A stretch of DNA of 11,576 nt from Bacteroidota bacterium (GTDB lineage: Bacteria > Bacteroidota > Bacteroidia > Bacteroidales > UBA10428): contig JAHEEB010000049.1 in the NCBI GenBank assembly GCA_024640925.1, forward strand, positions 1-11,576, given 5' to 3'. Numbering within the stretch: the first letter of the stretch is position 1; each line of letters begins with the position of its first letter. Under the pieces are notes generated by a model, which searched no databases, was not told where the DNA came from, and saw only the letters and a list, made by a program, of their open reading frames with translations. Shown here one piece after another: positions 1 to 11,576 of the stretch. Position numbers and translations under genes: made by a program.

Positions 1-181
1 AAAAAGTTGCTTCTTATAAATTCGTTCCAACGCTATTCCCCATTGTTTAATGAACCGCCGTATACGAACGGCGAAGCCCTCACGAATACCTTTGAAAAGA
101 AATTAATAAATGAGTAGACCCTTATGTACGCTGGTGTGAGAGGTTCTCCGCTAGGCATTGCATAGCGGCAGCCTACTCAAT
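1..181 (+). ncRNA. Group II intron 3' end remnant (domains V-VI), cut by the window edge
   Basis: The plus strand shows the 5' strand of a domain V helix (GAACCGCCGTA from 52), its 3' strand (TGTACGCTGG then TGTGAGAGG, 125-143), a domain VI hairpin (CCGCTA/TAGCGG, about 149-168) and the end CCTACTCAAT at 181. The layout matches the 3' end of the complete intron at 1486-3339 on the other strand. About 50 extra bases sit in the domain V loop (about 70-124), and one proximal pair is a C-C mismatch, so this copy is probably dead. The base after 181 is the T of TTAGGC, the end box of the S8 peptidase cassette, so the intron inserted into that box on the strand opposite the cassette. The intron-encoded protein, if any, lies outside the window. 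Confidence 0.6.
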
Positions 182-1485
182 TAGGCGCTGGCTTTATTTT
201 CTTCTATTTTTTCAGGTTCTCCATAAGTTCGACAGGGTTAACAATTTTCCCAAACTTATATTTCTTATTATTCTTTTCTATCTCAATTATGTCGCCAGTT
301 TCTAATGCATTATTCCAAAATTCTTGAGGTGTAACACTTGGTTTAACTTGGCAAGCTAAAGTATAAAGTCCAGCAATATATGGAATGACCCAACTTGTAC
401 CACCTGTTGAATAAAAAACATAACTATTATTTCCACTCTGACTAGCGGTACACCTAGAATCCACTGGAACCATTAATGTAGAATCTATCTTATAATATTT
501 TGGATTCTTATAAAACGATTTTGACCAAAGTACTCCTGGAAAATAGGAATGAATATCGTCTGGATTAGTCATACATTCTTTTCCAATTCCATGAAATCTT
601 AAATTTTGAGTTTTTCTAAGAGAGATGGAGACAACAAATACATTCTCTTTGCTTGCATCTTCTATAGCTTTCAGAAAGTCGGGGTTATCACTGCCAAACG
701 AAATGGATACAACTCTTATTTTTTTATCCGTAGGTAAAGTCCTATTAATCTCCAATATTCTATATATCGATTTAGTATACCCTTTGGTATATACATCCCT
801 TTTATTAAATAACTTATATCTAATAAAAGCCCCCAACGATGCATTCGTAGTAGAAATGTAATATAAATTGGCTTCAGGAGCAACTCCAACCGTTTTTCCT
901 ACAGCAATAGAAGTAACAGCTGATCCATGCATACTAGCTCCCCCATGTTTAGAAGCATGTATTTCTTCGTACATTCTCAATTGATCCTTATACTCGTAAT
1001 GGTCTACCAATAAATTCTGGTCGATTATCGCAATGCCAACTCCTTTTCCGGTTATCCCCATTTGATGAAGGTTGTGAATACTTAATCCGGGGTTCTTTCC
1101 TATTTCCATTATCGAATCCGGATTGAAACCAACAGGCAATGACTTAGGCCAATTTGTTTTACTATCAAAATCTGAATGCAATAATTCAATAAAATTATTT
1201 TTTAAATCCATATCTGAAATATCACGACATCTTAAATCACGTTCCAAATTCTTTGTAGAGCCTTCCTTGTATGTTTGCAACGAATCCAATTTTCCAAATC
1301 TATAAACAATCGAATCCGGCTTGCTTACTATTGTTAGGTCATTACCTTTCGAAATATTTGTCTTATAGAAAAGGGAACTACAGCTTGGAAATATCAAGAT
1401 TATACCAATTATTAAAATAAAGTCTTTCATAAGTATCATTTACGTTTAGTGATCAACTTGCAAATGGCTCTCAAGCTTGTGCCTA
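182..1485 (-). mobile_element. Integron-type gene cassette carrying the S8 peptidase gene
   Basis: Read on the minus strand, the cassette starts at TTAGGCACAAGC (from 1485) and ends at GCCAGCGCCTAA (193-182). The reverse complement of the end, TTAGGCGCTGGC, matches the start at TTAGGC-C--GC, as expected when a cassette's end box (R'') pairs with its own start in the excised circle. It holds one gene in the cassette direction with little spare DNA. Both boundaries carry group II intron sequence: the full intron upstream and a remnant downstream. Confidence 0.65.
204..1439 (-). CDS. S8 (subtilisin-like) serine peptidase, lipoprotein
   Basis: The protein has 411 residues. An N-terminal hydrophobic segment ends in FPSC, a probable lipobox with Cys20, so the mature enzyme is likely tethered to a membrane. 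The subtilase core follows: the Asp motif GVGIAIID (Asp140), the His motif MHGSAVTSIAVG (His171), SISFGS (about 245-250) and the Ser motif GGTSWVIPYIAG (Ser349). The Ser motif replaces the usual GTSMAAPHVAG but keeps the Ser. The stretch that normally reads AAGN and supplies the oxyanion-hole Asn reads VFVVSISLR here, so that Asn seems to be missing. Met4 (MKDFILII) is an equally good start. It is the only gene of its cassette, and its substrate is unknown. The peptidase family is clear; activity is uncertain. Confidence 0.85.
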   Translation of the reverse strand: MILMKDFILIIGIILIFPSCSSLFYKTNISKGNDLTIVSKPDSIVYRFGKLDSLQTYKEGSTKNLERDLRCRDISDMDLKNNFIELLHSDFDSKTNWPKSLPVGFNPDSIMEIGKNPGLSIHNLHQMGITGKGVGIAIIDQNLLVDHYEYKDQLRMYEEIHASKHGGASMHGSAVTSIAVGKTVGVAPEANLYYISTTNASLGAFIRYKLFNKRDVYTKGYTKSIYRILEINRTLPTDKKIRVVSISFGSDNPDFLKAIEDASKENVFVVSISLRKTQNLRFHGIGKECMTNPDDIHSYFPGVLWSKSFYKNPKYYKIDSTLMVPVDSRCTASQSGNNSYVFYSTGGTSWVIPYIAGLYTLACQVKPSVTPQEFWNNALETGDIIEIEKNNKKYKFGKIVNPVELMENLKK

Positions 1486-1578
1486 ATCGAGTAGGGAAAG
1501 ATACGAAATATTTCGCATCTCCACCCTCTCACACCACTCCCGATGTACATCGGGATACCGGCCGGTATACGGCGGTTC
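1486..1578 (-). ncRNA. Group II intron domains V and VI
   Basis: On the minus strand, GAACCGCCGTA starts at 1578, immediately after the RT stop codon, and GTGGTGTGAGAGG marks the far side of domain V. Domain VI is the AGATGCGAAAT/ATTTCGTATCT hairpin (1520-1499), followed by CCCTACTCGAT with a candidate branch-point A seven bases from the end. The distal part of domain V holds two palindromes, 1555-1568 (ATACCGGCCGGTAT) and 1538-1555. The expected TACGGTGG strand is only partly present. Confidence 0.65.
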
Positions 1579-1579
1579 G

Positions 1580-2908
1580 TTAAACATGGCTATATCTGAC
1601 GAATATTTCACTCATAGGTATAAAGCCCCTTTGTTTCAACCGTTCCATGGTTATGGTGGTTTTTAAGATTGGGGTGTTGACTATATGCCAGCCCCCACGT
1701 CTGTTTAAACCCCATGTGATGGCTAGCCACAGAGGAACTCCTAATTGTTTAAGGTTTCTGATTCTTGTTCGCATCCTTTTCCAGCTTTTCCAAATACAAT
1801 ACCGCAACCGGCCGCTCAGGATTCTGTCCAATTCTTGTAGTCGTGTCTTTATACTGGCATATTTGAAATAACCTATCCACCCAAAGCCCAGTTCACGTAA
1901 CTTTTGTGTTCGTTCAACCAGTGAGAGGGGTGTTGTTTTACGGGTTATTTCTTTACACTTGTGTACAAATTTCTGCCAGTTCGATTCGATTACTTTCAGT
2001 CCAAACTTCTGGCTCCGTGTTCGGTATATTCCGTAACCTAATAGCTCCATGTGGCCGGCATAACGCACTGCGCTCTTTTCGGTATTGATTTTGAGCTTTA
2101 GCTTGGTTTCGATATAACGTGTGATGCTCCGCATTACACGTTGTGCCGACTGTTTGGTGTGCACGTAGATGCTAAAGTCGTCGGCGTATCTCACAAATTT
2201 GTGCCCGCGTCGGGTAAGTTCTTTATCCAACTCGTTCAATACAATGTTAGAAAGCAATGGGCTCAGTGGGCTTCCTTGCGGTGTCCCCTCTGTCCGTTTA
2301 CATGTTAGGCCATCGAGCAGAATGCCCGTTTGAAGGTACCGGCGTATCAGGCTTAAAACTACTTTATCTTCTATGTCTTTTGACAAAAGCCCCATTAAAT
2401 GGTCGTGGTTTACCTTGTCGAAGAATTTCGACAAGTCGATATCTACCACATAGTGGCAGCCTTCGTTGACATAGGTTAAAGCTTGTTGTATGGCCTGATG
2501 GCAGTTCTTCCCTTTTCGGAATCCATAACTGTACATCGAAAATTTCGGGTCGTACTGTTCATTTAGCTCCTGCGATATGGCTTGCTGGATTAACCTGTCC
2601 ATAACTGTCGGGATGCCCAATAGGCGTTTACCACCTTTGGGCTTGTCTATTTCTTTCCCTAAGACTGGTTGTGGGCGATAAGTACCTTCAAGGATTGACT
2701 GTTTAATCGTGTCCCAATGTTCCTTCAGAAATGGTTTTAGTGCTACTAATTCCATTCCATCCGTCCCAGCGCAGCCTTTGTTCCCAAAGACCTGCCGGTA
2801 GGCATCGGTCATGTTCACCTTGCTTAAAATCCTTTCTATCATTTCGTCTTCTTTGGCTGTCGTTCCCCAAATGAATGCCGCCTGGCTCTCGGATACTACC
2901 TTTAGCAA
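1580..2908 (-). CDS. ltrA: Group II intron reverse transcriptase/maturase
   Basis: The protein has 442 residues. RT motifs in order are NKGCAGTDGM (about 43-52), KRLLGIPTVMDRLIQQA (94-110), VVDIDLSKFFD with catalytic Asp (154-164), GTPQGSPLSPLLSN (208-221) and RYADDFSIY (240-248, catalytic YADD). A thumb/maturase region follows with GFGWIGYFKY. The protein ends shortly after RRGGWHIVNTPILKTT, with no HNH endonuclease. It would splice its own intron RNA and reverse-transcribe it into new sites. The listed start is a TTG, because an in-frame TGA lies just upstream. An ATG at residue 23 (MIERILSKVN, position 2842) is a plausible alternative. The ORF is intact and lies inside the intron, ending at domain V. 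Confidence 0.93.
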   Translation of the reverse strand: MLKVVSESQAAFIWGTTAKEDEMIERILSKVNMTDAYRQVFGNKGCAGTDGMELVALKPFLKEHWDTIKQSILEGTYRPQPVLGKEIDKPKGGKRLLGIPTVMDRLIQQAISQELNEQYDPKFSMYSYGFRKGKNCHQAIQQALTYVNEGCHYVVDIDLSKFFDKVNHDHLMGLLSKDIEDKVVLSLIRRYLQTGILLDGLTCKRTEGTPQGSPLSPLLSNIVLNELDKELTRRGHKFVRYADDFSIYVHTKQSAQRVMRSITRYIETKLKLKINTEKSAVRYAGHMELLGYGIYRTRSQKFGLKVIESNWQKFVHKCKEITRKTTPLSLVERTQKLRELGFGWIGYFKYASIKTRLQELDRILSGRLRYCIWKSWKRMRTRIRNLKQLGVPLWLAITWGLNRRGGWHIVNTPILKTTITMERLKQRGFIPMSEIFVRYSHV

Positions 2909-3339
2909 GCCCTGCGAATTACATCATGGTTCCTGACGTTTAACGTTCTGTCCTTCGGTATTGTGTGAGGCTTCCAGTTTATCCCTTGTTCCTGGGGCTG
3001 GCTCGTGTCCATACTTAATATGACTTCTGCTGACCTCTCAATTGGACCAGCGCGTGGCCTTTGAGATCTCCCCGGGTAATGACATTAACTTTCGTCCTAT
3101 CGCTGCTACATCTACGCATCTGGTTGTTCGCAATATTTTGGGCTTCAGTGTGACGTGCCACCTTACCCTTACCAGCCCCGCCTCGGTATGTAGTTCTTGT
3201 TCATCAGTACAGGAGTTTACAGTCAGGCTTCCTTCAGACCCAGCCTCACGGATGGTATCCTTGCCTCTTGTTAGCAGTTCCATATTGCTTGGCCTGCAAG
3301 GGTCTCGCACCCTTTAGTTAATGCCCATGCCGGGCGCAC

Positions 3340-3464
3340 ACGGTGAGTATAAGAATAGTAGCCGACTGCGTGGCACTTTCTTGTCAAGTTACAAGAAAGT
3401 TGATGCGGGCTACAACCCTTGAATTTACTACTGTCCCGACTATTATTTTTATACATTGTTGTGT
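3340..3464 (-). other. attC-like recombination site ending the two-gene cassette, split by the intron
   Basis: On the minus strand the end box R'' is ACACAAC (3464-3458). L'' is GTATAAAAATAATAG (3454-3440). The central hairpin is ACTTTCTTGT/ACAAGAAAGT, flanked by GTAGCC/GGCTAC. L' is CTATTCTTATAC (3358-3347), followed by TCACC and then GT (3341-3340). The rest of R', TAGGC, lies at 1485-1481 beyond the intron. L'' and L' pair over about 12 bases with mismatches. The last codons of the upstream membrane protein (ending HNNV) run through R'' and L''. Confidence 0.65.
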
Positions 3465-3862
3465 TTAGTTTTTAACCAAATTGATGTTCCATATATTAAA
3501 ATCGTAGCAGTGAATGAAGATAATGACATTGCTAATTCACTTCCCTCATATGTACCTGATGCAGAACCAAATATTCCGAACATCAATGGCTCTCCAATCA
3601 CGATATAAATCATCTCAAAAATTATCAATGGAATTAATCCCAAGAGTAACTCAAGAGTTTTATATTTATTCGAAATCTTTTTTATAAGCAGAATAAAAAT
3701 CAAGGAAATTGCTGTTGTCAATAAGGCATTAATTAAAACTGCAATCATATAAATGTATCCTTCTGTTACATAGCCACAATAAAACATTCCTGCAATTGTG
3801 GTAATAAAAAAGTATAAAATAATACAAATCAAATCATGCTTAAATTTTGTCCTTTTAATCAT
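3449..3862 (-). CDS. Four-helix integral membrane protein of unknown function
   Basis: The protein has 137 residues and I do not recognise it. It has about four hydrophobic helices: roughly residues 10-31, 35-61, 72-91 and 108-128. Basic residues follow the start (MIKRTKFKHD) and the second helix (KKISNKYK). No transport or enzyme motif is visible. The start lies 3 nt after the stop of the upstream gene, so the two are probably translated together and may act together. The stop codon falls inside the attC-like site, so the cassette has no trailing spacer. It could be a partner or membrane anchor of the upstream soluble protein; that is inference. Confidence 0.8.
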   Translation of the reverse strand: MIKRTKFKHDLICIILYFFITTIAGMFYCGYVTEGYIYMIAVLINALLTTAISLIFILLIKKISNKYKTLELLLGLIPLIIFEMIYIVIGEPLMFGIFGSASGTYEGSELAMSLSSFTATILIYGTSIWLKTKHNNV

Positions 3863-3865
3863 TTG

Positions 3866-4282
3866 TCAATCCTTGTTAAATGGAAATCCATAAGGTCCTG
3901 GTTTTGAAACAGCCTTTGAATAAGAATTAGAATTTATAAAATCAAGAATCAAAAATTCAGTTCCTTTAATTGAGATAATTACTCCTTTGTTTGATGTTTC
4001 AATATTGAAATCTTTTTCTTGCAATTCTTTTTGAATAGTGAAGTCGTTTATAAAATCCTCGGATATTGGAGGAGCAAAATCATTGTCAATATATTCCCTT
4101 ACGTCAGAAGATTTTTCAACTACCGTTCCTGTTGAGCATACAAATCCGTCCAAGACTATTTTATTGTCATTTTCTGATTCTGAATCCAGAAGATATGCCC
4201 AAATCGAATGCTTATCCTCTTCGATTATCAAATCCTTTTTAATCGAATCAAGATGTTTTGATATGTAGATGGTTTCTCTCAT
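3866..4282 (-). CDS. Small soluble protein of unknown function, first gene of a two-gene cassette
   Basis: The protein has 138 residues and I do not recognise it. It is acidic (LIIEEDKHSIWAYLLD, SESENDNKIVLDG), with alternating hydrophobic stretches that suggest a mixed alpha/beta fold. It ends in a conserved-looking PGPYGFPFN. It has no signal peptide and no membrane segment. The ATG lies 11 bases inside the cassette boundary (GTTGTGT then an AT-rich leader), leaving no room for its own promoter within the cassette. Transcription would have to come from upstream. It is followed 3 nt later by a membrane protein gene in the same direction. Confidence 0.82.
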   Translation of the reverse strand: MRETIYISKHLDSIKKDLIIEEDKHSIWAYLLDSESENDNKIVLDGFVCSTGTVVEKSSDVREYIDNDFAPPISEDFINDFTIQKELQEKDFNIETSNKGVIISIKGTEFLILDFINSNSYSKAVSKPGPYGFPFNKD

Positions 4283-4289
4283 AAATTAA

Positions 4290-4423
4290 ACACAACAGTT
4301 GATGGTTTCGTTTAGTGTGGGAGCGCGAAGCTTTAACTAATCAGTTTACACCGCCTTTTGTTTACGGGCCACAAACGCCAAAACCCTCACCAATACCGAC
4401 ATTAACGAAACCATTTGTTGGCA
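4290..4423 (-). other. attC-like recombination site ending the lipoprotein cassette
   Basis: This is the clearest attC in the window. On the minus strand R'' is TGCCAAC (4423-4417), a two-base spacer follows, and L'' is ATGGTTTCGTT (4414-4404). A variable, partly self-complementary middle follows. L' is AACGAAACCAT (4312-4302), perfectly complementary to L'' over 11 bases. The spacer is CAACT and R' is GTTGTGT (4296-4290). The total of about 134 nt is within the normal attC range. The order of boxes and the 5-nt L'-R' spacer are as in known attC sites. Confidence 0.75.
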
Positions 4424-5112
4424 AACGTTATTTATTTATCATCCATATTTAATCTGTATACATGCCTCTTATCATAATTGTCAATCAATTGTCTGCCAAG
4501 AATTGTATCCTTTGGAAGAAACTTTCCTTCGTAATATAACTCTCCTAGTTCATCAATCGATTGTTCATGTCCTTTTTCAAATGCAAGTCTCAAATAACTT
4601 AATGCTTTATTTCTTGTTTCTTCATCACAGCTATCAAGTGAAAGTGTAGTTCCTGGTGTATCTGTACTTTTAAGAAGTTGGAAATAGACGTCAAAATATG
4701 CTTGAGGATAGTCATGTTTTTTTGCCATTTCCTCTGCTATTGGTAAAAAGTCTCCATGCGGTAAATCAAGGTATGCAATTGATAAAGAATAGTATGCATC
4801 GGTATCTCCTTGATTTAATGCTAATTCTTTTAATTCACTCAAAGGTCTACCCGGGTCATTCATGGATATAACCTTATCATTTCTTGAGTTATTACAAGAT
4901 ATAAGAATAATAACAATCACTATCCAATTAATATTTTTCATCTAAGTCATTATTAATTCTACTTTGACAGATTACCAGAAAATGGATAACCAAATCCAAT
5001 TTCCTATCCAGAATAAGTTAACAATCAAGACAATAATTCTTATAATTTTATTTTTAGATCATTTAATCAAGCCGTTTCAAATTTGCAGGAGGTCATTTAT
5101 AATGGTTGCCAA
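4296..5112 (-). mobile_element. Integron-type cassette carrying a lipoprotein gene
   Basis: It starts on the minus strand at TTGGCAACC (from 5112) and ends with R'' TTTGCCAAC (4417-4425), which matches its own start over GTTGGCAA. One gene plus the attC at 4290-4423. The start box directly abuts repeat copy 1, which carries a promoter-like sequence facing this gene. Confidence 0.68.
4432..4941 (-). CDS. Small lipoprotein with Sel1/TPR-like helical repeats
   Basis: The protein has 169 residues. A short N-terminal hydrophobic stretch ends in ILISC (Cys16), a lipobox, so it is probably a membrane-anchored lipoprotein. The rest is alpha-helical, with spaced Ala/Gly/Tyr patterns typical of Sel1 or TPR repeats: ALNQGDTDAYYSLSIAYL (about 42-59), AEEMAKKHDYPQAYFDVYFQL, and ALSYLRLAFEKGHEQSIDELGELYYEG (about 113-139). 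Such proteins generally mediate protein contacts, and the partner here is unknown. It is the only gene of its cassette. The stop lies 7 nt before the attC R'' box, and the ATG lies about 170 nt inside the cassette. Confidence 0.85.
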   Translation of the reverse strand: MKNINWIVIVIILISCNNSRNDKVISMNDPGRPLSELKELALNQGDTDAYYSLSIAYLDLPHGDFLPIAEEMAKKHDYPQAYFDVYFQLLKSTDTPGTTLSLDSCDEETRNKALSYLRLAFEKGHEQSIDELGELYYEGKFLPKDTILGRQLIDNYDKRHVYRLNMDDK

Positions 5113-5313
5113 CTCCTTATAGGTGCATAAAAACTGCACCTATTTTCCACATTTGGTACTATAGGTACACTTTTCATTCCTTTCTTCTCCATCTGGCTTT
5201 CATTTTTTTGTACTTAAAATTCCATACACAATATACCAAACTTCCCTTTACCTGTCAATAAGATTGTTTATAAAAATAAAAGGTAATTTTCAACCCGTTG
5301 TTAACAGGTATTG
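5111..5313 (-). repeat. Cassette-upstream repeat, copy 1 (promoter-bearing)
   Basis: About 200 bp, shared with 8526-8725 and 11003-11200. On the plus strand it begins AACTCCTTATAGGTGCA at the start box of the lipoprotein cassette and ends near TTAACAGGT. It includes a perfect 8-bp hairpin TAGGTGCA/TGCACCTA (5120-5142) and a minus-strand promoter (5230-5258). No ORF. The remaining gene-free sequence up to 5433 shows nothing else I can name. Confidence 0.8.
5230..5258 (-). promoter_or_regulatory. Promoter in repeat copy 1, reading into the lipoprotein cassette
   Basis: On the minus strand TTGACA (5258-5253), a 17-nt spacer, and TATATT (5235-5230). It could also be read as a Bacteroidetes TTG/TAnnTTTG promoter. 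The same arrangement is kept in all three repeat copies, though the rest of the repeat has diverged. It implies a leader of roughly 280 nt before the lipoprotein ATG. Confidence 0.5.
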
Positions 5314-5433
5314 TATGGCTAACAATATGGCAGTTTAAAAAGCTATACTGGCTAAATGCCTCTGTTTGCAGTGCAACTGAAGGAGATATGATTAAGCATG
5401 GCTGTTTCAACGGCTAGTACTCTTTTTTCCCAT

Positions 5434-5622
5434 TTACACACTTTCGTGGACTCTACCCACACTTTTTTGGACACAGTTCGTCGAATAGACTCCAATTTTA
5501 TCTTTTGCTTTATTGTCTCTATAAATACTTCTTACAAGCTGTATGGAGTCACGTTTCATGTCTTGCCCAAGCGTATATTTGTACTCACGAGGGAAATCCT
5601 GTGTATATAGAAACACCTGCAA
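5434..5622 (-). pseudogene. avd: Fragment of a diversity-generating retroelement accessory protein (Avd / four-helix bundle)
   Basis: The translation contains DFPREYKYTLGQDMKRDS followed by IQLVRSIYRDNKAKDK, which I recognise as the N-terminal half of Avd-like four-helix-bundle proteins. Intact Avd is about 110-130 residues and binds the DGR reverse transcriptase. Only about 40 residues match here. The frame has a stop just upstream (a TAA shortly after an ATG at 5637) and no ATG, only a TTG at 5622. After KAKDK the sequence switches to unrelated DNA with two 16-bp near-repeats that look like an insertion-sequence end. It lies directly downstream of the broken variable protein at 5717-6055, the usual target-then-avd order. 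Confidence 0.65.
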
Positions 5623-5716
5623 TTATTCTGCGGTCATGAGAATAGTTCGTAATATAAAGCCATAAATGTAATTTTCGTAAAAAAATCGAGCGCTACGCGG
5701 TTAAATTGTTAAATTG

Positions 5717-6055
5717 TTAAATAGCCCGAACAGCACGCACACTGTATGTGATGCTCTTTCCGTTGCTGCTCTGGTAGCCATAGTCGAAGTTCTGCACCCA
5801 AGCGTAGTAGTAGTTAAAGTTATTATCCTCGCTAGAATTCCAATACCAGGCACTAGCAAAACCGCCAACCGCAGTTTTTTGTAGGTATAATAAATTCAGC
5901 TCATATTTTGAAGGTAAATACCAGTCTCCATAGGTTACTCCATCAACAGTAACTGAATAATCGGCACAAACTTTTGCAGCAAAATTTCCTGTTTGGTTAT
6001 CTGCGATATTTCAGTTACGTTGATAAGTATATTTAATATAAAAACTTTTTTTCAT
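5717..6055 (-). pseudogene. Broken DUF1566 (Lcl C-terminal) variable protein of a diversity-generating retroelement
   Basis: On the minus strand, 97 codons are open from 6010 to the TAA at 5717-5719. They encode VCADYSVTVDGVTYGDWYLP, then SKYELNLLY and a C-terminus rich in Asn/Tyr/Ser ending YSVRAVRAI. This is the DUF1566/FGE-like C-type-lectin fold, with the C-terminal variable repeat of Bacteroidetes DGR targets. Variable positions use AAC, TAC, GAC, TTC, AGC and ATC, all one step from AAC, the mark of adenine mutagenesis. An in-frame TGA at 6011-6013 separates this from an ATG at 6055 (MKKSFYIKYTYQRN). The N-terminal domain of a full protein is missing, so it is a remnant. An Avd fragment follows downstream. 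Confidence 0.7.
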
Positions 6056-6113
6056 TAGCTTTCGTAGTAGTGGTCAGGTGATCACGTTTTAATCAATTAA
6101 AAAAACAATTTAC

Positions 6114-7916
6114 ATGGAAAAGAAATTCTACTTTACAGTTGTATTGGTTATGTGCTTCAGCTCTTTATTGCTTTCACAGAACCCGGTTGACAGCATTGTT
6201 GATGAAAATAATGGCTTCAATGGATATTTAGTCTGTCCCGTTGGAGCAACACAGTCTGATTTTTATGCTCAATCATTTATCGCCAACGTAGATACAATTA
6301 TGCGTTTTGGGGTTATTATTAACCAAAAAAGCCCAGAAGGTCAGGTTATATTATCCATTGCAGCCGATACCTCTGGTAAGCCAAATGTAACAAACCCATT
6401 GTACCAGGGGGAGTTAATAGATCCCACAACCGATACCGTTTGGTTTTATGAAGAAGTGATTAAAATCCCTGTTACCCTTGGTCAAAAATATTATGTTTTG
6501 ATTGATGGAATAAATAATGCAGGGGCAACAGGATCTGCTCAAATTGGACTTTCCGATACATATACTGACAGCTATGAATACATGATCTATTCAAATAATG
6601 GTGGATCTAGTTGGACGAATTATGGAGGTATATTAGCCATTTATGTTGAAGGCACACCGGGAAATTACCCGGTTACTTTCGCGGTAACAGATACTTCAGA
6701 CGACGATACGGTTGCTTTTGAAGGAGTAAATATATCGTTTGAAAATTATGGTGATAAATTAACTGATGAGTTGGGGTTAGTTGCATATGACCAGGTATAT
6801 TTCACCGGGGGTGATTCGATTCAATGGACAGCAACTAAATTAGGCTACTATACACGATCGGGATATGTTAAAATATCCGATACAACAACGATTAATATTA
6901 TTTTAACTCGGATACCAGTATATTCAGTAACATTTACCGTGAGCGATACAAACGGCAGTCCTATTGAAGGAGCCTCTGTTGCTCTCGATGTTTATGGAGA
7001 TATGATTACAGATGCTTACGGTATGGTTGTGTATGATACTGCATATGAAACTTTTGAACCAGGGATACCTTACCAGATATCCTTTGCCGGTTATTATCCG
7101 GTTAACGATAGCCTGGTTTTAACATCCGATACGGTTATAAACATAGAAATGGTTCATTATCCTTATTATAAAATAATCTTCCGTGTAACAGATAGCTCAG
7201 CATATGTTGAAGGGGTTAATGTAGCTCTTGCCGGCTATGGCAATGAGATTACAAATGCTGACGGATTGGCTGTTTTTGATAGCGAAATATACACTGCCGG
7301 CGAAAGCCTGACCTATGAGGTAACCTTTGCCGATTATTATCCGGTTAGCGATAGCCTGGTTTTAACATCCGATACGGTTATAAACATAGAAATGGTTCAT
7401 TATCCTTATTATAAAATAATCTTCCGTGTAACAGATGGCTCAGCATACGCTGAAGGGGTTAATGTAGCTCTTGCCGGCTATGGCAATGAGACTACAAATG
7501 CTGATGGATTGGCTGTTTTTGATAGCGTAATATACACTGCCGGCGAAAGCCTGACCTATGAGGTAACCGGAACCGGAATCAATACAGCTACCGGTAATAT
7601 AGTAATCGATACAGCCAAAACAATTAATGTTGTTGTGAGCTATCACGTTGGAATTTCTGGAATATCAAAGGAAAACATTAAAGTTTATCCTAATCCGTTT
7701 ACCGGGTATATTGAATTGAGCCTCGGGCACATTATTGCAGATTTTACATTTGTGTTGTATAATTCAGCCGGACAAGTTGTTTTAAACGAAGTTTTAAGTA
7801 ATCAAACACCTGAAAGCCTGATTAGAATCAATACCGAAGGGTTGGAAAAAGGAATTTATTTCTATCAATTGATTACTAAACAAGAAAGCTGGAGCGATAC
7901 TATTATAAAAAATTAG
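6114..7916 (+). CDS. Secreted repeat protein with a type IX secretion C-terminal sorting domain
   Basis: The protein has 600 residues. Its parts are: a signal peptide (about 1-21, KKFYFTVVLVMCFSSLLLS); a beta-rich domain (about 35-180, AQSFIANVDTIMRFGVIIN through AIYVEG); four beta-sandwich repeats of about 80 residues (185-265, 269-347, 350-428, 431-509) with the pattern VTFxVxD...VEGVNVALxGYG...TxxDGLAVFD, like carboxypeptidase-regulatory-type Ig folds; and a Por/T9SS type A sorting domain (about 518-600) with KVYPNPFTGYIELSL and GLEKGIYFYQL. It should cross the outer membrane through the T9SS and be surface-attached or released. Repeats 3 and 4 are nearly identical in DNA, a recent duplication. 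It is on the strand opposite the cassette genes, with no cassette boxes around it. Ligand or function is unknown. Confidence 0.9.
   Translation: MEKKFYFTVVLVMCFSSLLLSQNPVDSIVDENNGFNGYLVCPVGATQSDFYAQSFIANVDTIMRFGVIINQKSPEGQVILSIAADTSGKPNVTNPLYQGELIDPTTDTVWFYEEVIKIPVTLGQKYYVLIDGINNAGATGSAQIGLSDTYTDSYEYMIYSNNGGSSWTNYGGILAIYVEGTPGNYPVTFAVTDTSDDDTVAFEGVNISFENYGDKLTDELGLVAYDQVYFTGGDSIQWTATKLGYYTRSGYVKISDTTTINIILTRIPVYSVTFTVSDTNGSPIEGASVALDVYGDMITDAYGMVVYDTAYETFEPGIPYQISFAGYYPVNDSLVLTSDTVINIEMVHYPYYKIIFRVTDSSAYVEGVNVALAGYGNEITNADGLAVFDSEIYTAGESLTYEVTFADYYPVSDSLVLTSDTVINIEMVHYPYYKIIFRVTDGSAYAEGVNVALAGYGNETTNADGLAVFDSVIYTAGESLTYEVTGTGINTATGNIVIDTAKTINVVVSYHVGISGISKENIKVYPNPFTGYIELSLGHIIADFTFVLYNSAGQVVLNEVLSNQTPESLIRINTEGLEKGIYFYQLITKQESWSDTIIKN
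7090..7568 (+). repeat. 243-bp near-identical tandem repeat inside the T9SS gene
   Basis: The segment from TTATTATCCGGTT (7091) recurs at 7334, an offset of 243 bp (81 codons). The two copies differ at only a few positions over about 235 bp. The unit spans an Ig-like repeat, so gain or loss of a unit keeps the frame. Confidence 0.85.
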
Positions 7917-7930
7917 ACTATCAAAATAAT

Positions 7931-7981
7931 TGTGGAGGTAAGGTGCACTGGCGGACATAGTCCGCCAGCCATCTACTCGAT
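7931..7981 (+). ncRNA. Group II intron 3' end remnant (domain VI)
   Basis: GTGGAGGTAAGG resembles the domain V-VI junction (GTGGTGTGAGAGG) of the other copies. It is followed by a perfect hairpin CTGGCGGAC/GTCCGCCAG (7948-7968) and CTACTCGAT ending at 7981. CTACTCGATTAG is identical to the 3' junction of the complete intron. The next bases, TAGCGGTAGTGC, are the end box of the GNAT cassette. No domain V or ORF remains; the T9SS gene ends 14 nt upstream. Confidence 0.5.
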
Positions 7982-8527
7982 TAGCGGTAGTGCTTATCTG
8001 TTTAGTGTTTTCATTTCCTTAAATCCCTTTTAAGATAAATCATATCAACAAGTTGTATATCACCCTCGAAAATAGGGTGGTCGTAATTGTCTACAAAAAA
8101 ATTCTTTACTCGATATGACTTTTCAAATCCACAACTTTCATAAAACGATAATATTGCCGGCGTTTCACCTGTCCCGACAAGCATCGTTTTATAGTCATTT
8201 TTGTAAAAATCAAATATGAAATTTATCAATGATCTACCATACCCTTTGCCCTGATATTTCTCATATGTCGCTATGTTTTTCAATTCACAGGTTTCACTGT
8301 TTATTGGCATTACAACACAAACACTTTTCAAATCATCGTCAAATAAAGCAAACAAGTCTCCATTCGGCAAATAGTTGTCAATCATATTTTCCTGCTCGTC
8401 TGCCAACAACAATAAGTCAAGGAATTGTTTTTTATTTTCGATAATTTTTTCAATTTTCATCTTATCTCTGTTGTTTCCTAATTTATTAAATTTCATTTTC
8501 CGCTGTATCGCCCAGCATTACCGCTAA
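7982..8527 (-). mobile_element. Integron-type cassette carrying a GNAT acetyltransferase
   Basis: The minus-strand start is GTTAGCGGTAATGC (8528-8515). The end, read as the reverse complement, is TTAGCGGTAGTGC (7982-7994), identical but for one base. The cassette is about 546 bp around a single gene. The start abuts repeat copy 2; the end abuts an intron remnant, so its attC body is lost or displaced. Confidence 0.68.
8011..8460 (-). CDS. GNAT family N-acetyltransferase
   Basis: With the start [10 protein letters not shown] at 8460 the protein has 149 residues. The frame extends to an ATG at 8496, adding 12 residues. I prefer the inner start because the extra residues ([11 protein letters not shown]) look unlike the fold. 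The acetyl-CoA-binding motif A is [20 protein letters not shown] (QGKGYG is the pyrophosphate loop), preceded by the beta strand [16 protein letters not shown]. Motif B is [20 protein letters not shown]. It should transfer an acetyl group from acetyl-CoA to an amine; the substrate is unknown, and a drug, a toxin or a metabolite are all possible. GNATs are frequent integron cargo. It is the only gene of its cassette, downstream of repeat copy 2. Confidence 0.88.
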
Positions 8528-8725
8528 CTCCTTATACGCACATAAAAACTGCACCTATTTTCCACATTTGGTACTATAAGTGCACTTCCCATTCTTTACT
8601 TCTCCATCTGTCTTCCATTTTTACTAAATAAAAATCCACCACAATATACCAAACTCCATGTTATCTGTCAATAAGTTTGTGAATAAAATAAAAAGGTTGT
8701 TTTCAACCTGCTAAGAACAGGTGTT
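8526..8725 (-). repeat. Cassette-upstream repeat, copy 2 (promoter-bearing)
   Basis: The closest relative of copy 1: the first about 60 bases of each differ at few positions. It starts at the GNAT cassette box (CCGCTAACTCCTTATACG) and ends near GAACAGGTG. The hairpin arm TAGGTGCA has mutated to ACGCACA here and is not compensated, so the hairpin may not be essential. The minus-strand promoter is kept at 8643-8671. Confidence 0.8.
8643..8671 (-). promoter_or_regulatory. Promoter in repeat copy 2, reading into the GNAT cassette
   Basis: On the minus strand TTGACA (8671-8666), 17 nt, TATATT (8648-8643). Box sequences and spacing are identical to copy 1. It lies about 185 nt upstream of the preferred GNAT start. 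Confidence 0.5.
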
Positions 8726-8743
8726 GCAAGCTCATTCTGTTTG

Positions 8744-9148
8744 TTTTTAACCAACCCCAACCTTAGTAAGGGGCAATAACAAGGCGGTGGAACATAATAC
8801 CAACAAGCTGGTTTTAAACTGTTCTTTTTTTTTAGTACCCGAATAAAATCATTTTTCTTTGTAGTTAAAAAGAAGTCAACCTGGCAGCGTCTTCAGACCT
8901 GCCAGCGTTGTTGAAAAAAGTAACTAGAAAACATCAAAAATTCTTTAACCACAGTTTTAGGTTTTAGATAATTTTTTTTATATAATTTCCCGTTTCTCTT
9001 ATCAGTGTAATCGGGTTAATCTGTTATAATCTGCGGTTCAGACATTTTCTCCTGCACACCAAATCTTTCTTTTATGTAAAAACTCTATGTATGCACAAAT
9101 CTGTTATTGCCCCTTACTAAGGCCTTACTAAGGGGTTGGGGTTTTTAA
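8744..9148. repeat. Non-coding 405-bp element bounded by imperfect inverted repeats
   Basis: TTTTTAACCAACCCCAACC plus TTAGTAAGGGGCAATAAC (8744-8780) returns inverted at 9103-9148 (GTTATTGCCCCTTACTAAGG... to GGGGTTTTTAA). The right arm holds an extra tandem copy of the 11-mer CCTTACTAAGG. The interior has no ORF of note but includes a palindrome CTGGCAG-C-GTCT-TC-AGAC-CTGCCAG at 8881-8905. It may be a MITE-like insertion or a non-coding cassette remnant. I could not identify a target-site duplication. Confidence 0.5.
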
Positions 9149-9406
9149 TCAAAAATACCATATGTATTTGCCTGCAATTCGGAGCGTGGCCATATCAAAG
9201 TCTAATCTTTTAAAAGAGGTAGTAGATTTTTTCGTTCTCCCACTGCTTTCTTTTCTATCCTTACTGACTGTTTTTAATAGCAAAACTTGAAAAAACATGC
9301 TTTATCTACCTCTTTGTTTTTTAATTTACCTCTCTGATTTTAGCGTGTTTACCCTTTATCCCTGAAGAGAAGTCCATAGCCGCCAGGCCGGGTTTTAGTT
9401 CAACCG
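9149..9406. other. Gene-free stretch with a long imperfect hairpin
   Basis: AT-rich, no credible ORF. AAAGAGGTAGTAGAT (9213-9227) pairs with ATCTACCTCTTT (9304-9315) apart from a 3-base bulge, giving a hairpin about 100 nt long. Its size and bulge resemble a worn attC, but I find no R'/R'' boxes next to it. Nothing else recognised. Confidence 0.3.
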
Positions 9407-9443
9407 GGAGTTCATGTTTGGGCTTACAGCCCACATGAACTCC
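9407..9443. other. Strong hairpin at the end of the TIR cassette
   Basis: GGAGTTCATG (9407-9416) pairs with CATGAACTCC (9434-9443), and TGGGCT with AGCCCA inside, leaving a TT bulge and a 3-nt loop. An outer pair, GCCAGGCC (9382-9389) with GGCCGCTGGC (9452-9461), encloses it. It lies just 3' of the TIR gene end box. It could be part of an attC, a domain VI of another degraded intron (the plus strand then reads CTATTTAT before TTGGCC), or an RNA 3' end. There is no U-tract after it on the minus strand. Confidence 0.4.
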
Positions 9444-9449
9444 TATTTA

Positions 9450-11004
9450 TTGGCCGCTGGCATTTATTATTATTATGTTTATTTCAATGTTAGTGAATCT
9501 TTCATTTTAGCCTTGGCTGATTTTAATATCTCAACTAGCTTTTTATTTTCCTCTTCTCGGGAAAGGTAAACTTGAGAAAGTCTTGCATGCGTATAATCAG
9601 ATTTATCATTTATTTTTAGAGCGGAATTCAAAAAGTGTTCGGCTTTATCAAAGAATCCCTTATTATTATATAAATTACCAATATTTGAAAGAATCCAGTC
9701 CTCATTATTATTAGCTAAATCATTTGCTTTCTCATATGATGTTAAGGCTAAATTTGAAAATTCCAAATCTAAATAAGCATTACCTAAAAGCGTCCAATAC
9801 GTTGAATCTGTGCTATTGATTTTAATAAGCTCTTTATAAAGAAGTACACAGATATCTTTATGTCCTAAATCATAGCATGTCCTTGCTAATTTATAAAGAA
9901 TCTGCTCATTGTTTGGATATTCAGTAAAACCATTATATAAAATTTCTAATGCAGATTCTTTTTTGTCAATAGAAGTAAATAGTGATGAGAGTTTTATAAA
10001 CAAACCAGGATCTTTCAATAACTTCATTGATTCATTTAAAAATTCAAAGGCTTCATCTTTTTGATTTATTTCCATCAAGCAATCAATTTTAAGATTTGTA
10101 AGCGTTATTTTTCTTTGACAATGTATTAAACCTTCTTCAATAATCTCAATGGCTTTTGAATATAGATTATTGGAAAATAAGGTATTTGCATAAGCCAAAT
10201 AACTTAAATTATTTGTTTTATTCTCATTAATTAATTTTTCATATTCTGCTTTGCCAATTTGAGCATCTTTTTGGAACTTTGCATAGCAAATATATCCTTT
10301 GAATGTAACCTTGTCATCATTGTCTTTACTATTTCGAATCATCTTATTTAAAGACTTTATTGCGGAATCATATTCTTTTTTCACAAATAACATTTCAAAC
10401 CAATCTTCTGAATTATTATCTTTTTTTGTTTCTACTGTTTTTTGAGAATCAATCTCAGGTTCATCATTTAATTTCTTGGAGCCTCCATTTTTAATTATTG
10501 CTTCCCTAATCTTGTGTGAGGCACTTCCCGTAGCAGCTTGAAGATTATTATCAGTCCTTGATGTTTCATATTTTGCTGGTGTAACACCAATAAGGTCAGT
10601 GGGAAGATGAAACTCCTTGTTATCTGGAATAACTATAAAACAACTCTTTCGGCCAAGCCTACCAATAAATAATCCTAACTCAAATAAAACATTATCTCTA
10701 ATTGCTAAATCTTTTTTCCCTCTAATCATAATATGGTCATCGGGAGTAAATACGAATACACCAAAATCACATGTGTCTAAAAGAGATAACAATGATTCTA
10801 AAGATGATTCTGATAAATTAAATATACCTTGAGACCAAACAGTTGTCTCAGAAATGTATTTTAAGTTTTCCTGAATAGCGTATGCAACATCTAGTCCTTC
10901 TACAGATGAGGCAATAAATAGTCTGTATTTGCTCATGATTTATATTTAATAATAACCTGATTCAATATATTATTTGCATTGTAACAAATTTTGCTTGCGG
11001 CCAA
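9450..11004 (-). mobile_element. Integron-type cassette carrying the TIR-TPR gene
   Basis: The minus-strand start is GTTGGCCGCAAGC (11005-10993). The end, as the reverse complement, is TTGGCCGCTGGC (9450-9461), matching at 10 of 12 positions. The cassette is about 1.55 kb and filled by one gene. The end box reads AAT instead of AAC, as in the two cassettes whose end boxes are joined to intron remnants. The start abuts repeat copy 3. Confidence 0.62.
9479..10936 (-). CDS. TIR-like domain (CAP12/Pycsar type) fused to TPR repeats, candidate antiphage NADase
   Basis: The protein has 485 residues. Residues 1-150 form a TIR-like domain of the predicted nucleotide-binding kind (PF10137 group): YRLFIASSVEGLDVAYAIQ at the start, VWSQGIFNLSES, DFGVFVFTPDD and RDNVLFELGLFIGRLGR, then LPTDLIGVTPAKY. 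Glu86 in FELG is the expected catalytic Glu of NAD-cleaving TIRs. A linker with charged residues (about 152-178) follows, then TPR-like helices to the end, for example SYLAYANTLFSNNLYSKAIE and WTLLGNAYLDLEFSNLAL. No signal peptide or membrane segment, so cytoplasmic. TIR domains of this type are effectors in CBASS and Pycsar, but no cyclase gene is adjacent, so the TPRs probably do the sensing (inference). Single gene of a cassette, downstream of repeat copy 3. Confidence 0.85.
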   Translation of the reverse strand: MSKYRLFIASSVEGLDVAYAIQENLKYISETTVWSQGIFNLSESSLESLLSLLDTCDFGVFVFTPDDHIMIRGKKDLAIRDNVLFELGLFIGRLGRKSCFIVIPDNKEFHLPTDLIGVTPAKYETSRTDNNLQAATGSASHKIREAIIKNGGSKKLNDEPEIDSQKTVETKKDNNSEDWFEMLFVKKEYDSAIKSLNKMIRNSKDNDDKVTFKGYICYAKFQKDAQIGKAEYEKLINENKTNNLSYLAYANTLFSNNLYSKAIEIIEEGLIHCQRKITLTNLKIDCLMEINQKDEAFEFLNESMKLLKDPGLFIKLSSLFTSIDKKESALEILYNGFTEYPNNEQILYKLARTCYDLGHKDICVLLYKELIKINSTDSTYWTLLGNAYLDLEFSNLALTSYEKANDLANNNEDWILSNIGNLYNNKGFFDKAEHFLNSALKINDKSDYTHARLSQVYLSREEENKKLVEILKSAKAKMKDSLTLK

Positions 11005-11200
11005 CTCCTTATAGGTGCAATAAAACCACACCTATTTTCCATATTTCGTACTATAGGTGCACTTTTCCTTCCTTTCTTCTCCATCTGTTTTCCATTTTAA
11101 GTAAATAATCTACCCCAATATACAACCTCCGCCGTTATCTTCCAATACCTTCCTGTATATAATAATCAATAAGTTTTCAACTAGTAAGTTATTAACAGAC
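11003..11200 (-). repeat. Cassette-upstream repeat, copy 3 (promoter-bearing)
   Basis: The most diverged copy. It starts at the TIR cassette box (GGCCAACTCCTTATAGGTGCA), keeps CTATAGGTGCACTTTTC and the TCTTCTCCATCTG block, and ends near ATTAACAGA. The hairpin is shortened to TAGGTG/CACCTA. The promoter boxes are kept at the same spacing. The gene-free stretch 10937-11231 holds only this repeat and the gene leader. Confidence 0.78.
11117..11145 (-). promoter_or_regulatory. Promoter in repeat copy 3, reading into the TIR cassette
   Basis: On the minus strand TTGGAA (11145-11140), 17 nt, TATATT (11122-11117). The upstream box is weaker than TTGACA in copies 1 and 2, but the spacing is the same although the sequence around it differs. 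It lies about 180 nt upstream of the TIR gene start. Confidence 0.42.
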
Positions 11201-11272
11201 AGGGAGCAGGAATAAAAAAACGCTGTAAACATTAATCTTCGTTTAAACAAACTACTCTACCCTTCCCGAGGA

Positions 11273-11576
11273 TCGTTGCAGATTCGACAAAGATCGTTGC
11301 AGATTCAATAAAAGTTACTGCAGATTCGACAAAGATCGTTGCAGATTCGATAAAAGTTACTGCAGATTCGACAAAGATCGTTGCAGATTTGAAAAAAGTT
11401 ACTGCAGATTCAATAAAGATCATTGCAGATTCAACAAAGATCATTGCAGATTCGATAAAAGTTGTTGCAGATTCGACAAAGATCATAGCAGATTTGAAAA
11501 AAGTTACTGCAGATTCGATAAAAGTTACTGCAGATTCAATAAAAGTTGTTGCAGATTCGACAAAGATCATAGCAGA
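11273..11576. repeat. 21-bp tandem repeat running off the window
   Basis: At least 14 units of a 21-bp repeat (type unit GTTGCAGATTCGACAAAGATC). Units vary at a few fixed positions (GTT/ACT/ATT/ATA, TCG/TCA/TTG, ACA/ATA/AAA, ATC/GTT). Because 21 is a multiple of three, both strands stay open. Plus reads VADSTKI-type heptads with no ATG after the TAA at 11253-11255 region or upstream start in view; minus reads FVESATI-type heptads ending LGKGRVVCLNED. I cannot tell which strand, if either, is coding, since synonymous changes occur in both readings. Confidence 0.85.

Follow-up and report, generated by a model that had tools for sequence, protein, structure and literature searches.

Integron-type gene cassettes in a Bacteroidota genome and its order, with a patch-less tyrosine recombinase as their likely integrase

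Introduction

Integrons are thought to be rare in Bacteroidota. The IntegronFinder 2.0 survey (2022) describes the Bacteroidetes as previously holding only elements with an integrase but without cassettes, and adds one complete integron from Salinibacter (PMC9024848); Bacteroidota also appear among the integron-bearing phyla in a review and a survey (PMC8618304, PMC9668308). The DNA analyzed in this study (hereafter the window) is an 11,576-nt stretch of Bacteroidota bacterium (Bacteroidales; UBA10428) and represents the whole contig JAHEEB010000049.1 (C234) of a metagenome-assembled genome (MAG) that has 5.67 Mb in 1131 contigs and is 82% complete. A preliminary description of the window proposed integron-type cassettes in a Bacteroidota-like genome. 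The cassettes stand, on the basis of their boxes, their attC sites, and their spread among relatives. The kind of integron is revised, because the boxes are not GTTRRRY, the promoter repeats are attI-like, and the recombinase found at some related arrays is not IntI. It is likely that the window belongs to an integron-type cassette system of Bacteroidota that is driven by a non-IntI integrase lacking the IntI-specific patch. Among papers searched by title and abstract, a search that left most subscription papers and preprints outside its range, none reports arrays of cassettes from this phylum whose integrase is without the patch.

Among the described systems, integrons with IntI (TIGR02249) are the closest. 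Features shared with the arrays reported here include co-oriented cassettes, a folded R''-L''-L'-R' site, a G|TT core, a promoter-like sequence before the first cassette, and, in some genera, an apparent order of integrase, putative attI, and array. The differences are that the putative integrase of the arrays reported here is without the IntI patch and in most cases has WS repeats (see below), that 13 variable letters with a recurrent A-C mismatch replace GTTRRRY, and that the window genome has many array heads instead of one. Clusters of attC lacking integron integrase (CALINs) are similar in having arrays without a nearby IntI, but differ in that platforms with another recombinase are present here in related genera.

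Self-matching boxes and folded attC sites

The minus strand of the window encodes an S8 peptidase, a group II intron reverse transcriptase, two small uncharacterized proteins, a lipoprotein-like protein, a GNAT acetyltransferase, and a TIR-TPR protein. The preliminary description recognized five co-oriented units with self-matching ends, and all five are present on this strand. Each one opens with a 13-nt start box that returns as its reverse complement at the unit end, with a recurrent mismatch at position 10. The units are the TIR (CAP12/Pycsar type)-TPR cassette at 9450-11004 (start box 11004-10992, end box 9462-9450), the GNAT cassette at 7981-8527 (8527-8515 and 7993-7981), the lipoprotein-like cassette at 4418-5112 (5112-5100 and 4430-4418), a two-gene cassette at 3459-4295 (4295-4283 and 3471-3459), and the S8 peptidase cassette at 181-1486 (1486-1474 and 193-181). 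The lipoprotein-like protein and the two products of the two-gene cassette (137 and 138 aa) have no Pfam match. On a scale with a maximum of 9.5, the box match scores are 9 for the TIR, 9.5 for the GNAT, 8.5 for the lipoprotein, and 8 for the S8 cassette. The boxes of the two-gene unit agree in 12 of 13 letters, and the sole difference is at position 10.

A survey of 36 stretches of the window genome marked 50 boundaries, of which 46 have a TT box and 30 also have a marked downstream end. The match sum of these 30 start/end pairs is 220, compared with permutation maxima of 152 and 154 in two runs, and none of 20,000 permutations reached it. The mean match over 11 positions is 7.33 for adjacent pairs and 3.68 for other pairings. 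Eight of the 30 pairs are poor (score ≤5 of 11) and were retained in the sum. Four of the end boxes were chosen by self-match or by eye; without them, the remaining 26 pairs sum to 183 against a permutation maximum of 135 (0/20,000). An end box scoring at least 8 (maximum 9.5) was found for 24 of the 46 start boxes. Position 10 of the start box is A in 41/46, and the matching end boxes mostly have C there. The preliminary description took the boundaries to be the self-matching ends of integron cassettes. Their self-matching supports this reading, whereas the classical form does not: only three of the 46 boxes strictly fit GTTRRRY, and the RYYYAAC/GTTRRRY core boxes of IntI integrons are not what these boundaries generally carry. 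GTT itself is preserved at 21 of 22 boundaries that follow a promoter repeat.

An intact attC (R''-L''-L'-R') lies between the lipoprotein and two-gene cassettes (4284-4430, minus strand), where the preliminary description placed a textbook attC at 4290-4423. Together with four other intact sites of the same genome (contigs C639, C329, C909, and C226), this site (aligned over 4287-4430) yielded an alignment with 25 consensus pairs, 12 of which are changed on both sides. The covariation score is 0.448, compared with 0.191 in shuffles (0/500 reach the observed value) and at most 0.20 when the structure is slid; the consensus structure was derived from the same five-site alignment, which favors the score. 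On this covariation, the R''-L''-L'-R' sites do fold. A covariance model built from the five sites (R1) gave 20 matches at E ≤ 1 on the 36 stretches. The preliminary description advised an attC covariance model as a check, and R1 does have matches at boundaries, with the proviso that the model comes from sites of the same genome. The intact site scores 129.7 bits as a member of the training set. The attC of the two-gene cassette (3333-3471, minus strand), which is split at GT|T by an intron, lies outside the training set and scores 41.8 bits (E 5.8e-8). Because R1 E-values are rough and the model derives from a single genome, the site counts given below are likely lower bounds.

Spread of the sites and of IntI among relatives

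R1 sites were found in 21 of 23 genomes of the family (E ≤ 0.01) and, with E ≤ 1e-4 and stricter filters, in 85 of 159 genomes and 79 of 139 genera of the order. If these sites are what they appear to be, roughly every second genome sampled from this order carries integron-type cassettes. The boxes of the relatives also match: 15 pairs sum to 98 against a permutation maximum of 86.5. This comparison used 33 of 35 matches, with two partial ones left out, and five of its pairs are poor, some by misread register. A further sample, picked for assembly quality and site number, comprised 40 stretches with 125 sites from 18 genomes. A score of at least 8 is reached by 51 of its 78 adjacent pairs but by only 0.67% of the other pairings, and in 48 of the 51 an A faces a C at position 10. 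Within each of the 30 stretches that have at least two sites, all sites are on one strand. A canonical-type attC scan of the same 40 stretches produced eight hits, with both strands read, compared with the 125 R1 sites.

One alternative is that these arrays are remnants of ordinary IntI integrons (i.e., CALINs). A canonical IntI would then have made and moved the cassettes, being either absent from the assembled MAG or no longer present in most of the order, and the patch-less recombinase would be a bystander. The attC-like fold is compatible with this explanation, and CALINs are reported to outnumber complete integrons in bacteria (PMC9668308). A true IntI is present in a genome of the same genus (G008, 422 bits), and two named Bacteroidetes MAGs (L160 and L174) have broken or incomplete IntI genes. 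However, IntI is far rarer than the sites; it exceeds the model cut-off in one of 23 genomes of the family and five of 393 of the order. Moreover, among 28 of 81 IntI-bearing loci examined with R1, none of the 24 stretches from other phyla matched, and one of the four from Bacteroidota (L160) did. The scarcity of GTTRRRY among the boxes and the placement of the array-head recombinase in another clade (see below) also speak against such remnants, and this explanation appears unlikely. In L160, the R1 site (1680-1821) is located just behind a 464-aa frame that resembles an intron reverse transcriptase. For the IntI-bearing loci themselves, a strict canonical attC scan gave no usable pairs. A relaxed scan gave a small sample of 23 pairs, with both strands read and about half of the pairs independent. 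These agree mainly in the first six letters and in a few cases in 9-13, and a mismatch at position 10 does not recur among them.

A patch-less tyrosine recombinase at array heads

Four recombinases were searched by tblastn (E ≤ 1e-5) against 53 array stretches (13 from the family and 40 from the order), and ten stretches matched, eight of them strongly. In seven of the eight strong loci (G085, G164, G107, G024, G168, G007, and G021), the recombinase gene is co-oriented with the sites and located 0.8-4 kb upstream of the first R1 site. The gene in G085 is broken into two frames, and 16 sites follow it. The eight array recombinases that were scanned all have PF00589 and PF13495. On TIGR02249 they score 193-227 bits, all below the cut-off of 265 and each in two separate stretches; an IntI gene with the IntI-specific patch is thus found neither among these eight array recombinases nor in the window genome. 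On the XerA model NF040815 ('site-specific tyrosine recombinase/integron integrase') they score 202-238 bits, and two exceed the cut-off of 220. The best sequence neighbors are XerA and IntI4, with 4a8e, 2a3v (IntI4), and 5hxy as the nearest solved structures; 4a8e and 5hxy represent XerA, and IntI4 is matched in two stretches around its patch. Most proteins in the alignment have N-terminal CRWSxTMxCWHxP repeats (WS repeats), which are absent in L061. XerA is not known to have such repeats. In the phylogeny, IntI forms a single clade with 100/100 support, apart from the array recombinases; two recombinases are placed next to IntI with weak support. A protein identical to the G168 recombinase is recorded from Bacteroidetes bacterium GWF2_38_335.

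Presence of the recombinase is associated with presence of the sites. At E ≤ 1e-70 the recombinase is found in 65 of 159 genomes; 53 genomes have both, 32 have sites only, 12 have the recombinase only, and 62 have neither (p 2.8e-9). The corresponding numbers at E ≤ 1e-100 are 47, 38, 10, and 64. For these counts, two draws of 159 were taken to be the same genomes, as their handles suggest. Among the 33 genomes with at least five sites, 26 have the recombinase.

At 25 of the 40 recombinase loci examined, the sequence continues for at least 500 nt past the gene. A self-matching first cassette was found within 450 nt in 12 of the 25, compared with 11 of 125 shuffled tests. Ten of the 25 were accepted after the fact, leaving out L324 and L301, which are without the position-10 pattern. 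In these ten, the first cassette starts 34-359 nt after the recombinase. Furthermore, among 63 hits at E ≤ about 1e-100, the 3' end of the gene is less than 1 kb from the contig start in 17 of 34 minus-strand hits, whereas among the plus-strand hits the 5' end is that close in 3 of 29 (p 0.001). Such an excess of contig breaks past the recombinase is expected if the downstream sequence varies or is repeated. In L341, L345, and L351, the contigs stop 3-5 nt from a putative G|TT past the recombinase, a pattern that population-level variation of the first cassette would produce.

In agreement with the preliminary description, which had no integrase in view and advised searching the surroundings for intI, a genome-wide profile search of the window genome found six Phage_integrase places and none over the TIGR02249 cut-off. 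One tyrosine recombinase in this genome is apparently split over two contigs (L057 and L047; C444 and C909). It was considered as an IntI candidate and rejected; the gene immediately behind it encodes an IS91-type transposase (Zn_Tnp_IS91, Y2_Tnp).

Several observations count against this recombinase as the integrase, or against the cassette system as a whole. The patch-less recombinase was not found in the 82%-complete genome of the window itself. In published work, the IntI patch or domain is described as necessary for integron recombination (PMC9668308), and the IntI insertion as essential for integron function, though not fully conserved (PMC8138268). No recombinase match at all was found in 43 of the 53 array stretches, and the matches in L316 and L332 are weak and a short fragment, respectively. 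In G037, the recombinase is divergent from the sites. The recombinase is absent in seven of the 33 genomes with at least five sites and present in 12 genomes without sites, and the co-occurrence counts ignore the kinship of the genomes. Only three of the seven co-oriented loci (G085, G024, and G021) pass the first-cassette test with the position-10 pattern, and the motif at the ten accepted post-recombinase sites is loose, with TATAA near the cut in three. The family is also large, with 7,253 proteins at E 1e-60 among 8,000 scored, and may have other roles. Finally, in the folding of the boundaries that the preliminary description advised, the covariation is positive, whereas whole-site single-strand folding energies are no better than those of shuffles in four of the five intact attC sites (the exception, C909, has z of about -5).

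Some of these observations would fit a second alternative, in which XerC/XerD of the host or another recombinase moves the cassettes and the genes with WS repeats are passengers of the array heads. The 32 of 85 site-bearing genomes that lack the recombinase at E 1e-70 and the many array stretches without it are as this explanation predicts, and in G011 the recombinase gene is directly before an attC-like site, the position typical of a gene within a cassette. On the other hand, the upstream, co-oriented position in seven of eight loci and the strong tie between the recombinase and the sites are not what passengers would lead one to expect, and we regard this explanation as quite improbable. 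Based on position and co-occurrence, the patch-less recombinase is most likely the mover of the cassettes, while the cassettes and their attC sites are in themselves strongly supported.

Promoter-bearing repeats as putative attI copies

The preliminary description noted promoter repeats inside the array. The repeats are present, and their identity is revised here to attI-like. A 126-nt repeat (family D3) has three copies in the window, all on the minus strand and each located before a cassette. The copy before the TIR cassette (11000-11145) has a predicted promoter with -35 TTGGAA at 11140-11145 and -10 TATATT at 11117-11122 at a spacing of 17, and ends G|TT. The copy before the GNAT cassette (8523-8726) has TTGACA at 8666-8671 and TATATT at 8643-8648, and the copy before the lipoprotein cassette (5108-5313) has TTGACA at 5253-5258 and TATATT at 5230-5235. 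These promoters are consensus readings (TTGACA or TTGGAA, 17 nt, TATATT). With a longer query derived from the repeat, 26 matches were obtained, which are spread over 18 contigs of the genome. The ΔattI cassettes of mobile integrons also have attI sequence within arrays, but differ in scale and setting: those are 26 unusual cassettes of mobile integrons (PMC12901181), whereas here the promoter-like matches all belong to one genome.

Aligned copies of the repeat agree as far as GTT and diverge beyond it, such that the repeat stops exactly at the box, and the letters after GTT return as the reverse complement at the end of the next gene. Within the window genome, the repeats end in ...GCACCTATAAGGAG|TT or ...CTATAAATAG|TT. 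In G010, which belongs to the same genus, the first cassette starts 34 nt past the recombinase stop at ...GCACCTATAAAAGAG|TT, close to these repeat ends. Because of this resemblance, the promoter repeats look like copies of attI, with attI function and promoter activity both predicted from sequence. The repeat was also considered as the inside of a giant attC. An attC arm does precede some copies, but others come after unrelated genes, and in the platforms of other genera a similar motif is located behind the recombinase, for which reason attI is preferred. Several copies come after an attC arm within arrays and may be hybrid sites, and for some copies both readings may be true.

The repeat is practically restricted to the window genome, as are two common body sequences. 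One degenerate pattern of the repeat had no exact match in GTDB or viral contigs, and BLAST of all three sequences against 22 relatives gave no match or single matches of 24-26 nt. Within the stretches covered of seven genomes, a search for a repeat that lies downstream of the recombinase and recurs at further array heads gave matches of only 38-66 nt (G085, G024, and G168). In G118, the 77 nt past the end of the recombinase gene match no other stretch. Multiplied attI-like sites are therefore reported for the window genome (G000) only.

Group II introns in attC sites

The attC of the two-gene cassette is interrupted by a group II intron (1486-3339, minus strand), which encodes a reverse transcriptase/maturase at 1580-2908 (RVT_1, GIIM) and matches RF02001 at 3081-3255 (125.4 bits). 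With its ends read by eye, the intron starts with GTGCG, ends with AT, and sits between the two T of the GTT core. Position 1-181 (plus strand) reads as the 3' end of a second, inverted group II intron in the attC of the S8 cassette, without a model match; an inverted repeat (I1; 44-65 and 1565-1586) links it to the first. A third intron-like 3' end (...CTACTCGAT|T), identified by its resemblance to the others, abuts the GNAT end box on the other strand (7940-7981, plus). The view in the preliminary description that unit ends are cassette boxes holds in general, with the qualification that the S8 start box and the S8 and GNAT ends adjoin intron 3' ends (by resemblance in the case of GNAT) and not attC arms.

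Similar intron 3' ends are found at further boundaries of the genome in both orientations. One class of boundaries reads A|TT in 24 of 24 cases, compared with G|TT at 21 of 22 repeat boundaries; the A is partly built in, as the search motif contained it (≤3 substitutions allowed). Intron insertion between the two T of the core would explain this A|TT reading. Ends of the form CTACTCGA|TT had been considered as attC arms and were dropped, given the intron gene stop and domain V/VI-like sequence upstream. In L144 (C637), the minus strand before position 1260 reads by eye as a well-formed domain V/VI of a group II intron directly before a cassette box, and this intron differs from that of the window.

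The closest described elements are group IIC-attC introns, for which the published rule is insertion at TTGT/T of the bottom strand in an orientation that opposes the cassettes, with one same-strand case (PMC7923331). The introns reported here are alike in lying inside the GTT core of attC, and differ in being also oriented with the cassettes and at many sites. The window intron itself is located at GT|T of the core and does not follow the opposite-strand rule. Although many boundaries of the window genome are intron 3' ends, it is scarcely credible that the boxes and hairpins, instead of being recombination sites, are targeted or generated by group II introns or by other elements with a preference for hairpins, because intron-free intact sites show the fold, boxes of this kind are found again in array stretches from 18 other genomes, and introns are known to target attC (PMC7923331).

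Proposed mechanism and significance

In the proposed system, a cassette would be a gene that opens with TT and 11 variable letters and closes with the reverse complement of these letters and then AAC. Circularization would bring the two boxes together as the paired outer stem of the folded attC, with the A-C mismatch at position 10 apparently preserved across the order; this mismatch is perhaps a strand or polarity mark. The integrase would be an IntI-related tyrosine recombinase without the IntI patch, mostly with N-terminal WS repeats, that heads arrays in other genera. In the window genome, it may act in trans from an unassembled part or may have been lost. Promoter-bearing repeats ending in G|TT would serve as attI copies for cassette insertion and subsequent transcription, and group II introns would later have invaded attC at GT|T in both orientations.

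With somewhat less confidence, we favor a broader hypothesis, according to which Bacteroidota have their own order-wide integron lineage. A patch-less IntI relative with WS repeats would recombine folded attC sites with a 13-nt A-C-mismatch box, and in some species the attI-promoter would be multiplied, such that one integrase feeds dozens of arrays with defense genes and genes of unknown function. In that case, gene shuffling on a large scale may have escaped notice. Search models designed around IntI and GTTRRRY might miss such cassettes, which would represent a second natural way of recombining folded DNA, without the IntI patch, and a new pool of cassette genes. The multiplied attI-like sites and intron-filled attC also provide a setting that makes questions about cassette formation testable.

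Cassette cargo and other features

The potential pool of cassette genes includes defense genes. The TIR protein of the window matches PADLOC models for TIR effectors and PycTIR. An array in G022 (L262, 4442-14965) has five attC and encodes a CBASS cyclase, an E2, a 4TM effector, a TIR/SEFIR protein, a GmrSD-type enzyme, and an FRG protein. Six of its nine proteins match PADLOC models (cyclase, E2, 4TM effector, bSEFIR, GmrSD-like, and FRG). By eye, a repeat of about 300 nt is present on both flanks of this array. Among 20 proteins sampled from other contigs of the window genome, behind boxes or in arrays, eight exceed a Pfam cut-off (three GNATs, a tautomerase, an isochorismatase, a PIN protein, a cNMP-binding protein, and one GldM C-terminal-like protein), two have weaker matches only, and ten have none.

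The plus strand of the window has a gene for a protein with a type IX secretion tail (6114-7916), which contains two 243-nt repeats that are 96% alike. This gene is flanked by the GNAT end box on one side and by the next attI-like repeat on the other. A fragment at 5650-6010, which the preliminary description called remnants of a DGR, reads like the end of a repeat-rich extracellular protein. A tandem array with a 21-nt unit of the form GATTCGACAAAGATCGTTGCA occupies 11229-11576 and reaches the contig end, with open frames on both strands. Finally, a perfect 21-nt inverted repeat (CCTTAGTAAGGGGCAATAACA) at 8761-8781 and 9102-9122 is part of a short element that recurs before several copies of the promoter repeat and in attC bodies of the genome.

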